Below, one piece after another: positions 44,763 to 48,262 of a stretch of 50,388 nucleotides of DNA. The stretch's first letter is position 1; each line of letters opens with the position of its first letter. This DNA is from Balneolaceae bacterium ANBcel3 (GTDB lineage: Bacteria > Bacteroidota > Rhodothermia > Balneolales > Natronogracilivirgulaceae). The stretch lies in NCBI GenBank assembly GCA_030012235.1, contig JASCXY010000003.1, forward strand, positions 1-50,388. The letters run 5' to 3'. Made by a program: the position numbers and the translations under genes. The notes under the pieces are model-generated. The model was not told the DNA's origin and did not search any database. It saw nothing but the letters and a program-made list of their open reading frames with translations.

Positions 44763-45785
44763 TTAACGCAGACGAATCCGCAGTATATAGCTGTTCGCGG
44801 TCATGTACAGAACGTCTTCGTTCCCGTTGAAGGCACAGTTCGAGATAAATTCACCCGCATAAATCCGCCCAAGTGGTTCCGCATCGGGTGAAAAAATCCA
44901 GACACCACCCGGACCCGTGGCAAAAATATATCCATCGCTTCTTACCTTCATGCCGTCGGGAAGACCGGGAGCCGTTCCAACGTATTCGGTTACATCATAA
45001 AATACTCTTGGATTGGCCAGATCCCCGTTTTCAAGAACATCATACACCATCCACAACGCCTTGCCCCGATCTGAATTTGCTACATAAAGCAGAGATTCGT
45101 CCGGTGAAAACGCCAATCCGTTGGGACGGGTAAGATCATCCACAACACGCGTAACACTTCCGTCCGGATCTACACGGTATACGCCATATACATCCATTTC
45201 TTTGGCAGGATCATTTACATACCCCTCTAATCCATAGGGGGGATCTGTGAAATAGACACTTCCACTGCTATGCTGAACAAGATCATTCGGACTGTGAAAT
45301 CGTTTGTCGTTGTAATGAGTCGCCAGAAACGAAAATTCCGGCTCGGGATGCTCAAGATCCGCATCCATCCGGGCAATGCTCCGATTGCCATGCTGACAAA
45401 GTAACAGAGCCCCATCCTTTCCGATAATCAGTCCATTTGACCCGATTTCTCCGCCACGGCCAGAGTCCCCCGTATAACCGGAAGGATTCAGATAAGTGGT
45501 TACTCCATCTTCTTCCGTCCATTTGTAAATCGTATTGGCAGGTACATCTGAGAATAACAGAAAACCATGCTCATCAACCCAAACAGGGCCTTCTGACCAA
45601 CGATATCCCTGGCCCAGTACCTCAGGAGTATGTTCCGTTGAAATAACTTCAGAAAGCCTCTCATCCAGCACTTCGATTCCTGCTTCTTCTTTGGGTGGAT
45701 AGGTATCCTGCCCAAAGGCCATCTCTGTGGTTTGTGCCCAAAAAAAACACCCTGCAATCCCTATTCCGTATAAAGCTCGTTTCAT
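44763..45785 (-). CDS. Secreted SMP-30/gluconolactonase-family hydrolase
   Basis: The 340 residues start with a signal peptide (MKRALYGIGIAGCFFWAQTTEMAFGQ), then form the six-bladed beta-propeller of the SMP-30/gluconolactonase family. Calcium or zinc ligands are expected in YRWSEGPVW (Glu), FHSPNDLVQ (Asn) and GLAFSPDESLLYVANSD (Asp). GYTGDSGRGGEIGSNGL is a typical blade. It should hydrolyse a sugar lactone or related ester in the periplasm. The physiological substrate is unknown. Confidence 0.93.
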   Translation of the reverse strand: MKRALYGIGIAGCFFWAQTTEMAFGQDTYPPKEEAGIEVLDERLSEVISTEHTPEVLGQGYRWSEGPVWVDEHGFLLFSDVPANTIYKWTEEDGVTTYLNPSGYTGDSGRGGEIGSNGLIIGKDGALLLCQHGNRSIARMDADLEHPEPEFSFLATHYNDKRFHSPNDLVQHSSGSVYFTDPPYGLEGYVNDPAKEMDVYGVYRVDPDGSVTRVVDDLTRPNGLAFSPDESLLYVANSDRGKALWMVYDVLENGDLANPRVFYDVTEYVGTAPGLPDGMKVRSDGYIFATGPGGVWIFSPDAEPLGRIYAGEFISNCAFNGNEDVLYMTANSYILRIRLR

Positions 45786-45854: not shown

Positions 45855-47012
45855 CTATTCTTCAAGCAGCCGTTTACGAAGTACAACCTCCGTTTCTCTC
45901 ATCGAGCCGCCTCGCAAAAAAGTAATGTTCATATGCTCACCACGATTATACTCATGAAGCACAGCCCGGGCATGTTTTTCACCGTAAATTACCTCCCCGC
46001 CTAACCGGGTAACAATATCACCAGGACGTATTCCTGCCTGATACGCCGGGCCGTCTCTGTTGACTCCGACGATGAATAAACCATGCTTCACCGGAAGGTA
46101 ATACCGTTCCGCAATGGAACGTGTAACCGGAACCATTTCCAGGCCCATACTGTAATTCAGCCGACCGGGGTTTTCCTGTACCAGATAATTTACCATGGAT
46201 GCAATTTTTTTTCCGGGTATGGCAAACCCATGATTCCGGTACGTCTCTGGCAACAATGAATCCGGAAAAACAATATTCATTCCTGCAAGTCTTCCATCCA
46301 TATATAAAAGCGGCCCGCCGGAAGCCTCTGTTCCGGTCTTCGTGCTAAGCATTAAAACATCAGGATACACATAGCCCGGTGACTGCTCTATCTCAAGCAG
46401 TTGTCCCGTAGAAGAAATAATTCCGGGCGAGAGTATCGGAGAAGCAAAATAATGATAATGCGCCGGGCTTGCGGAAATACTAAACACCGTTGCTCCTGTT
46501 TGGACCGAGTCCCCTTCACAAAATATCAGATAGGGTACCTCTTTCTCCATTTCCAGCTTTAAAAGAGTAATTCCGGAGTGTGGATCAGCTCCGACAACAT
46601 GCGCCTCAGCCTTTCTTCCATCGTACATGGTCACTTCGGTGGTCTCGGGTAATGATCCGGTATCTGGTATCCAGGTCACAATAAATCCATCCTCGGAGAT
46701 AAAATAACCGGTAAAAACAGCTTTCGAATACGGGTTACGGATGAAAAAATCATCTGGCTCATCCGATGGAAAGGTAATAAATACCACCGCTTTTTTGGAT
46801 TGCCTGTACGCATCTGAAAGATCGGATGGCCCTGCTGTATGAACGCCCACCTCATAGCCGCGGGTATTCCCCGGACTTACATGAACTATTCCGCGTTGAT
46901 GTACTTGTATGGCCACATCCTGTTTCGGATTATGATCCATACAAGCCATAGGGAAAAACACCAGGAATACCGTAGCAATTATGCCATAGAGTCTGTTATT
47001 ATTCTTTTCCAT
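45855..47012 (-). CDS. DegP-like PDZ lipoprotein with lost catalytic His and Asp (pseudoprotease)
   Basis: The 385-residue protein resembles trypsin-like DegP/HtrA proteases followed by one PDZ domain (about 295-385; VPVTRSIAERYYLPVKHGLFIVGVNRDGPAYQAGIRPGDIV). The N-terminus has a lipobox (FPMAC, C24), so it should be a lipoprotein. Aligned to DegP, the active-site His is Pro (P116 in FIVTWIPDTG), the Asp is Gly (G147 in GADPHSGITLL), and only the Ser (S231 in TEASGGPL) remains. It is therefore probably an inactive, substrate-binding protein, or the alignment of the first half is unreliable. It lies between the SMP-30 and NrnA genes on the same strand. Confidence 0.82.
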   Translation of the reverse strand: MEKNNNRLYGIIATVFLVFFPMACMDHNPKQDVAIQVHQRGIVHVSPGNTRGYEVGVHTAGPSDLSDAYRQSKKAVVFITFPSDEPDDFFIRNPYSKAVFTGYFISEDGFIVTWIPDTGSLPETTEVTMYDGRKAEAHVVGADPHSGITLLKLEMEKEVPYLIFCEGDSVQTGATVFSISASPAHYHYFASPILSPGIISSTGQLLEIEQSPGYVYPDVLMLSTKTGTEASGGPLLYMDGRLAGMNIVFPDSLLPETYRNHGFAIPGKKIASMVNYLVQENPGRLNYSMGLEMVPVTRSIAERYYLPVKHGLFIVGVNRDGPAYQAGIRPGDIVTRLGGEVIYGEKHARAVLHEYNRGEHMNITFLRGGSMRETEVVLRKRLLEE

Positions 47013-47199: not shown

Positions 47200-48177
47200 T
47201 TATTCATTCAAAAAACGACTAATTTCCGCAACCAGCTCCCACGTAGCTTTTTCAACAGGACCCGGGTGCCACGCTCCGGCCGCATTAAAATGGCCGCCGC
47301 CTTCAAACGACCTGGCCAGTTTATTTAAATCTACCCTGGATTTACCTCTCAGGCTTACTTTAATCCTGCCATTTTTTTCATACAAAAATACTGAAACCAG
47401 AACCCCTTCTATAGCAAGCGGGTAATTGACAAATCCCTCCAGATCTTCCAGCGTTGATCCTGTTTCTTCCAGTTGCCTCTGCGTGACAACCATAGTGGCC
47501 ACCCGGCCATCTTCATGCAAATCAATCGAATTGAGCGCATTCCCCAGCAGCTGATACTGCCCCAGTGTCTTTCCCTCATAAATTTTTGAATAAACTTCAT
47601 CCGGACGAATTTTTCCGTACTGTAAAAGGCTTGCTACCGCTTCGTGAGTTCCTGCGGTAACTGTCGGAAACCGAAAAGACCCGGTGTCCGTCATTATTCC
47701 GGAATAGAGCGCTTCGGCTACGGACCGATTGATCAGAGAAAGGCCACTTTCCTCAAAGATTCTCCATACCAGAAAAGCGGTAGAACTGGCGTCCGGATCC
47801 CACAACATGGCATGGAAAAAAGACTCCGGAGGATCCATATGGTGGTCGATCAGAAATACAGGCTTATCGGTCTCTTGTAAGAAATGCTGCATATTTCCAA
47901 AACGTGAAGGATGATTTCCGTCCACCAGAACAAAGGCATCACAGGTTCGAACGAGTGCTTCAGAAGGAGCCTCAACTCGTGTACTTCCTTCCAGCCATTT
48001 CATATTTCCCGGTACCGGGTCGTCATTAAACAATAACGTTTGAAGGCCTTGTTGTTCCAGCCAAAACGAAAGTGCCAGCTGTGAACCGATCGCATCACCA
48101 TCGGGATTGATATGTGAAAACAACCCTATTCGTGAATATTTTGTCAGCTCTGCACTAAAATTCTTTACCATCTTCAT
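47200..48177 (-). CDS. nrnA: NrnA-type DHH/DHHA1 phosphoesterase
   Basis: NrnA-like enzymes cleave short oligonucleotides, 3'-phosphoadenosine 5'-phosphate and, in some species, c-di-AMP or pApA. From the chosen ATG at 48177 (the one at 48171 is also possible) the protein has about 325 residues. The DHH domain includes SHINPDGDAIGS, LVDGNHPSRFG, LIDHHMDP and GIMTDTGSFRFP. The DHHA1 domain ends GGGHFNAAGAWH. All metal-binding motifs are present, one in a variant form (DGNHPSR where DxSDxxR is usual). With CdaA in the same region it is a candidate for c-di-AMP turnover. It diverges from thiN. Confidence 0.92.
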   Translation of the reverse strand: MKMVKNFSAELTKYSRIGLFSHINPDGDAIGSQLALSFWLEQQGLQTLLFNDDPVPGNMKWLEGSTRVEAPSEALVRTCDAFVLVDGNHPSRFGNMQHFLQETDKPVFLIDHHMDPPESFFHAMLWDPDASSTAFLVWRIFEESGLSLINRSVAEALYSGIMTDTGSFRFPTVTAGTHEAVASLLQYGKIRPDEVYSKIYEGKTLGQYQLLGNALNSIDLHEDGRVATMVVTQRQLEETGSTLEDLEGFVNYPLAIEGVLVSVFLYEKNGRIKVSLRGKSRVDLNKLARSFEGGGHFNAAGAWHPGPVEKATWELVAEISRFLNE

Positions 48178-48262
48178 TATCTTTATGTTTTTAAGCGGTT
48201 TCATACCTATTATCAGGCTTTCCAACCAATAATCAAAACGATCATTAAAACTTTCAGAACTG

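Follow-up and report, generated by a model that had tools for sequence, protein, structure and literature searches.

A single-PDZ HtrA-like protein with a lipoprotein-type N-terminus and a degenerate catalytic site in one family of Balneolales

Members of the HtrA/Deg family are built from a chymotrypsin-like domain followed by at least one PDZ domain, and the protein considered here follows this plan. It shares its fold with DegP and DegQ (peptidase S1C), but carries one PDZ domain against their two and lacks the catalytic His and Asp. In DegS and AlgW, which are active proteases, a transmembrane helix provides the anchor. Like the present protein, they combine one protease and one PDZ domain with an N-terminal membrane attachment and a probable envelope location, and AlgW is among its best PDB sequence matches. 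However, the anchor is of the Cys type here and there is no triad. The scores obtained with curated models remain below the cut-offs (71.6 bits against 422.95 for the DegS model TIGR02038, 121.5 against 416.2 for the Do-family model TIGR02037, which covers DegP and DegQ, and 32.6 against 800 for the MamO model NF040961). Two orthologues with a complete His-Asp-Ser triad (HDS; G002 and G022) likewise fail the curated DegP, DegS and MamO models, so these cut-offs do not separate active from inactive proteins.

Degenerate HtrA homologues have been described. MamO has a degenerate triad and a non-Gly residue at position 193 in each MamO; according to that report, it also possesses a TauE domain as well as a pair of metal-binding His residues, metal binding was shown, the loss was tied to the redundancy of two proteases, and inactive MamE paralogues also exist (PMC4794232). 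The protein described here resembles MamO as an HtrA homologue with a degenerate site, MamO being kept, according to the same report, for a non-catalytic role; position 193 would correspond to the Gly lost here two residues before the Ser. It differs from MamO in having no second family copy in its genome. PflC of Campylobacter jejuni is presented as a triad-less HtrA fold with two PDZ-like domains, a scaffold that builds a flagellar disk; in sequence alignment its Ser matches, whereas its Asp column differs and the loop of the His is missing (PMC12222027). The present protein differs from it by its single PDZ domain and its lipoprotein-type N-terminus. Bacterial HtrA pseudoproteases are therefore already known (MamO, PflC), although few among those found by our literature search, and the present case is set apart by the lipoprotein-type anchor, the single PDZ domain and the loss in a single-copy orthologue. 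This search, with most subscription journals outside its reach, found no report of an nrnA-linked HtrA lipoprotein family.

The gene lies in a stretch of 50,388 nucleotides from Balneolaceae bacterium ANBcel3 (the window; genome G000). The features of the locus are collected in Table 1.

Table 1. Features of the HtrA-like gene and its neighbours (positions in the window)
Feature	Position	Strand	Basis
Single-PDZ HtrA-like lipoprotein, catalytically degenerate, 385 aa	45855..47012	(-)	ORF opened by ATG and its translation, Pfam, DegP fold match, orthologues
N-terminal hydrophobic signal with Cys24, lipobox-like PMAC	46941..47012	(-)	Cys column is C in 106/107 orthologues
Degenerate chymotrypsin-fold domain, residues 97-284	46161..46724	(-)	Block pLDDT mostly 78-95; 26/82 near-invariant positions kept
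Pro116 in catalytic His column	46665..46667	(-)	Column is H in 105/107 orthologues
Gly147 in catalytic Asp column	46572..46574	(-)	Column is D in 105/107 orthologues
Glu229-Ala230-Ser231; Ser in nucleophile column, Gly-Asn ahead of Ser lost	46320..46328	(-)	Orthologue alignment
PDZ domain, residues 286-382, conserved	45867..46157	(-)	Pfam PDZ_2; 20/26 near-invariant positions kept; short branch
NrnA-like DHH/DHHA1 phosphoesterase, conserved upstream neighbour	47200..48225	(-)	Pfam; NrnA match at 104/107 orthologue loci
SMP-30/gluconolactonase-like gene, downstream, not a conserved neighbour	44763..45785	(-)	Pfam; adjoins HtrA gene in 1/107 loci

Two Pfam profiles exceed their cut-offs: Trypsin_2 (residues 101-245, E 3.5e-12) and PDZ_2 (residues 289-376, E 7.7e-11), the latter marking the sole PDZ region. 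A single-chain AlphaFold2 model was obtained from the protein and 40 HtrA relatives of named genomes; its mean pLDDT is 81.1 and its pTM 0.74, with values above 80 across most of the protease and PDZ regions, and the aligned HtrAs, 22-29% identical to the query, may bias it towards the HtrA fold. The best fold match is DegP (8f0a; E 7.2e-25, Z 30.2, rmsd 3.8, 301 residues; Foldseek, VIA-align). The claim in the preliminary description that the PDZ domain is intact agrees with the profile match and with the conservation of its near-invariant positions. His347, 99% conserved among HDS members and kept in all four degenerate ones, falls within a predicted helix (345-352) which presumably is the one where class I PDZ domains have a ligand-contacting His; this is a lead only. 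The lipobox proposed in the same description is upheld by the Cys column (the one row of 107 without C is cut by a contig end) while the motif itself is atypical, with Pro at -3. The usual residue at this position is Leu. A promoter scan gave no signal (6 sites against 6.2 expected); terminator-like sites number 8 against 4.0 expected (sd 2.1) and were given no weight.

The His, Asp and Ser columns were read from an alignment of the protein with 106 orthologues and 4 DegP references. They hold P, G and S (P116, G147, S231), as first described, whereas the two DegP-like proteins that this genome encodes have the full triad of H, D and S. Two features of active S1C peptidases are absent: the triad, and the Gly that stands two positions ahead of the Ser (GNSGG) and is replaced here by Glu229. 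The retention of SGGPL, pointed out earlier, holds for the motif itself, but the segment around it is also altered, since Gly-Asn ahead of the Ser has become Glu-Ala. This Gly is present in all 103 HDS orthologues and is replaced by E, S, A and A in G000, G019, G014 and G015. As it is lost in all four degenerate proteins and the nearest orthologue has Glu in the Ser column (two others have Ala), the retained Ser231 is no sign of retained function and any weight on it lacks support. No His is found within 20 residues of position 116, the nearest being at 138, and a substitute would need to come from elsewhere in the fold. A frameshift was considered and discarded: at each of these sites, the two alternative frames show nothing motif-like, and most contain stops. 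A second reading frame was discarded as well, only one of the six frames matching a family HMM built without this protein (207 bits).

A profile of the five carriers found in the family of the window genome (20 genomes including this one: G000, G019, G002, G014 and G015 carry the gene) was run against 128 genomes of the order, with orthologues defined by more than 400 bits. Such a match is present in 107 genomes; the next matches listed are of DegP length and score below 250 bits. Across the order, the family consists of single-PDZ HtrA lipoproteins encoded next to an NrnA-like gene, and the window protein is orthologous to its members by locus, length, Cys and PDZ. Unlike it, 103 of the 107 keep the triad. 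The exceptions are HDA in G014 and G015, PGS in G000 and RGE in G019 (34% identical to the window protein), and all four belong to the window's own family. The preliminary description had called the protein unusual among HtrA-like proteins, which this rarity bears out. It had also regarded orthologues with a full triad as an argument against a pseudoprotease; they are the rule, but they do not rescue the activity of the window protein, and indicate a derived loss, restricted to a single family. Outside the order, 40 related single-PDZ proteins of the same phylum, a non-random choice among the best matches listed, have HDS in 39 cases, and the 40th shows the HDS motifs in the correct frame. Peptide patterns retrieved no close relatives in the named genomes, and a profile search of these found only generic HtrAs, including those of Ignavibacteria and Rhizobiales. 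Judged from the alignments, the window protein appears to be a real, derived pseudoprotease, rare in the order.

The HtrA gene is located directly downstream of the NrnA-like DHH gene in all five family carriers. Across the order, the three loci without an NrnA match are short contig pieces or lie near contig ends, and in 13 of the 104 others nrnA was labelled 'down' by the script where the open stretches appear to overlap or to form one frame, as seen on inspection in the fused genus g28. The gap between the two genes is 187 bases in the window and a few bases in several other loci. This adjacency suggests a shared unit. The SMP-30 gene was rejected as a partner because it is a neighbour at a single orthologue locus; G017 (L253) and G016 (L257), without an HtrA gene, have an SMP-30 gene at the same place by nrnA, so its presence varies independently.

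In genus g28, a single uninterrupted frame of 754-779 aa encodes both the NrnA-like protein and the HtrA lipoprotein in 7 genomes (L118:728-2998 in G100, L117, L128, L088, L110, L097 and L076); in an eighth, G108, L084 is cut by the contig start and the junction is present. In the G100 fusion, NrnA (7-302) is followed by a hydrophobic segment that contains a lipobox-like Cys, and after it comes HtrA (426-752). This arrangement is odd, with an export signal in the middle of the protein behind a phosphoesterase of cytosolic type. Cleavage at the Cys would give two separate proteins.

Within the window's family, G000 and G019 are sisters (99/99) while the clade joining G014 and G015 to them is weak (57/61); the degenerate members form very long branches, and the tree program issued a warning that long branches meet. 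The Gly before the Ser is altered in all four, which is true of none of the triad residues, and a single shared first lesion at this Gly, rather than two separate losses of catalysis, is possible. The 15 other genomes of the family have no orthologue above 400 bits; NrnA was found in 13 of them. In 12, the HtrA gene is missing beside nrnA, a count that excludes G004 and G005 (60% and 51% complete); nrnA directly adjoins an ECH-type gene in 10 of these, among them G009, which holds the end of nrnA only, and an SMP-30 gene lies between in the other two, G016 and G017. G013 (L258:2506-2856) encodes a diverged 117-aa family piece with the lipoprotein Cys, in which Gln replaces the invariant Gly before SGF; the contig ends shortly ahead of its His site. 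Because several relatives have lost the gene, the protein seems to be becoming dispensable in this family. Six genomes outside the family are also without an orthologue: G112 and G115 have a distant nrnA match with no HtrA of this family within 1.5 kb either side, and nrnA was not found in the other four.

Erosion was assessed at 114 positions (window residues 60-385) conserved in at least 95% of the 103 HDS members. Of these, the window protein has retained 26 of 82 within the protease domain, 20 of 26 within PDZ and 1 of 6 in the pre-protease segment; the corresponding numbers are 44, 22 and 6 for G019, 59, 20 and 6 for G014, and 69, 25 and 6 for G002. Protease and PDZ retention differ with Fisher p of 7e-5 in G000, 0.005 in G019, 0.80 in G014 and 0.18 in G002. 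On a fixed topology of 36 rows, the G000 tip measures 4.4 substitutions per site for the protease domain and 0.70 for PDZ, and the G019 tip 0.98 and 0.39, while the 32 HDS tips (G014 and G015 being left out of these sums) total 5.25 against 8.66; very long branches are poorly estimated and the comparison is good for direction only. PDZ is thus the faster part in HDS members and the slower part in G000 and G019. Identity between these two is only 30% over the protease domain but 55% over PDZ, at near-saturated synonymous sites, whereas the HDS pair G002-G113 has 61% and 63%. The substitution pattern indicates that constraint on the window protein has been relaxed in the protease domain and maintained in PDZ, the reverse of the active orthologues. 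The HDA pair G014-G015 behaves differently: its protease domain has a pS of 0.79 and a pN of 0.10 (pN is 0.105 in PDZ and 0.18 in nrnA), pN/pS being used in place of dN/dS because synonymous sites are saturated. With pN so low relative to pS, a protease domain without nucleophile is being conserved, and appears to be under strong purifying selection. In a neutral simulation with 0.25 changes per site, only 0.05% of 4000 runs left a frame of comparable length open, and at 0.5 none of 4000 did.

The reading we favour, and consider probable, is that an ordinary single-copy HtrA protease was inactivated in place, after which some species retained it as a lipid-anchored PDZ binder and others lost it. 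The starting point would be a single-copy, lipid-anchored, single-PDZ HtrA protease of which no second copy was made. The sequence itself shows that the His and Asp of the triad are gone together with the Gly ahead of the Ser, that the protease domain has drifted with its predicted HtrA fold retained, and that the PDZ domain has stayed strongly constrained. The window protein would still be exported and lipid-anchored, and may serve as a receptor or scaffold that does not cut, its PDZ domain binding C-terminal or exposed peptides of envelope proteins, while true proteolysis would fall to the genome's two DegP-like proteases. The substrate sensor or chaperone suggested in the preliminary description is likewise a hypothesis. 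It counts against this reading that the HDA pair, and not the window protein, supplies the best evidence of selection on a dead protease domain, that of the window protein being much eroded. The very long branches of the degenerate members, the Pro at -3 of the signal and the possible bias of the structural model also weigh against it. Plain decay fits the absence of the gene at the locus in 12 relatives too: once its protease function had become redundant in the family, the catalytic site would have eroded and the gene would be heading for loss, PDZ retention reflecting a lag. The 12 of 20 genomes with nrnA and no HtrA gene beside it, the diverged 117-aa piece at a contig end in another, and a strongly accelerated protease domain, 30% identical even to its nearest relative, make this a rival to be taken seriously; 385 open codons, the PDZ identity to G019 and the purifying selection on the dead domain of the HDA pair nevertheless make it rather unlikely.

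Our favoured reading of a free-standing binder must also be set against regulation of the genome's DegP proteases, via mixed trimers or substrate delivery. HtrAs are trimers, the fold is predicted to be kept and two DegP-like proteins are available. MamO and MamE provide a published inactive-active pair (PMC4794232). However, the segment before the protease domain, conserved in active orthologues, is lost here (1/6 positions), and we regard such regulation as improbable. Far less credit can be given to continued proteolysis with another catalytic base or a Ser-only mechanism: Ser231 and GGPL are retained and His residues exist at 138, 145, 185, 187 and 261, but the change of Gly-Asn to Glu-Ala, the disappearance of many HDS-invariant positions and the Ser-to-Glu replacement in the nearest orthologue speak against it. 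An assembly or alignment artefact is the least credible explanation; the genome is a draft of 490 contigs with 4.27% contamination, yet there is no frameshift signal, the locus order is intact with nrnA and a TPK-like gene, the Asp-to-Gly change is shared with a second genome and the Ser is lost in a third and a fourth.

A broader proposal, which we advance tentatively and hold to be somewhat doubtful, is that the order-wide, nrnA-linked HtrA lipoprotein has a non-catalytic, PDZ-based job separable from proteolysis, and that one family dropped catalysis in place without duplication and was left with a lipid-anchored PDZ receptor, with HDS, HDA, PGS, RGE and gene loss as stages. A single locus in one family offers the full triad, loss of the Ser, loss of all three residues and loss of the gene, with PDZ held in the carriers. 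This series allows testing which part of the HtrA job is cutting and which is binding, and the case shows an enzyme turning into a non-cutting protein, or vanishing, within one bacterial family.
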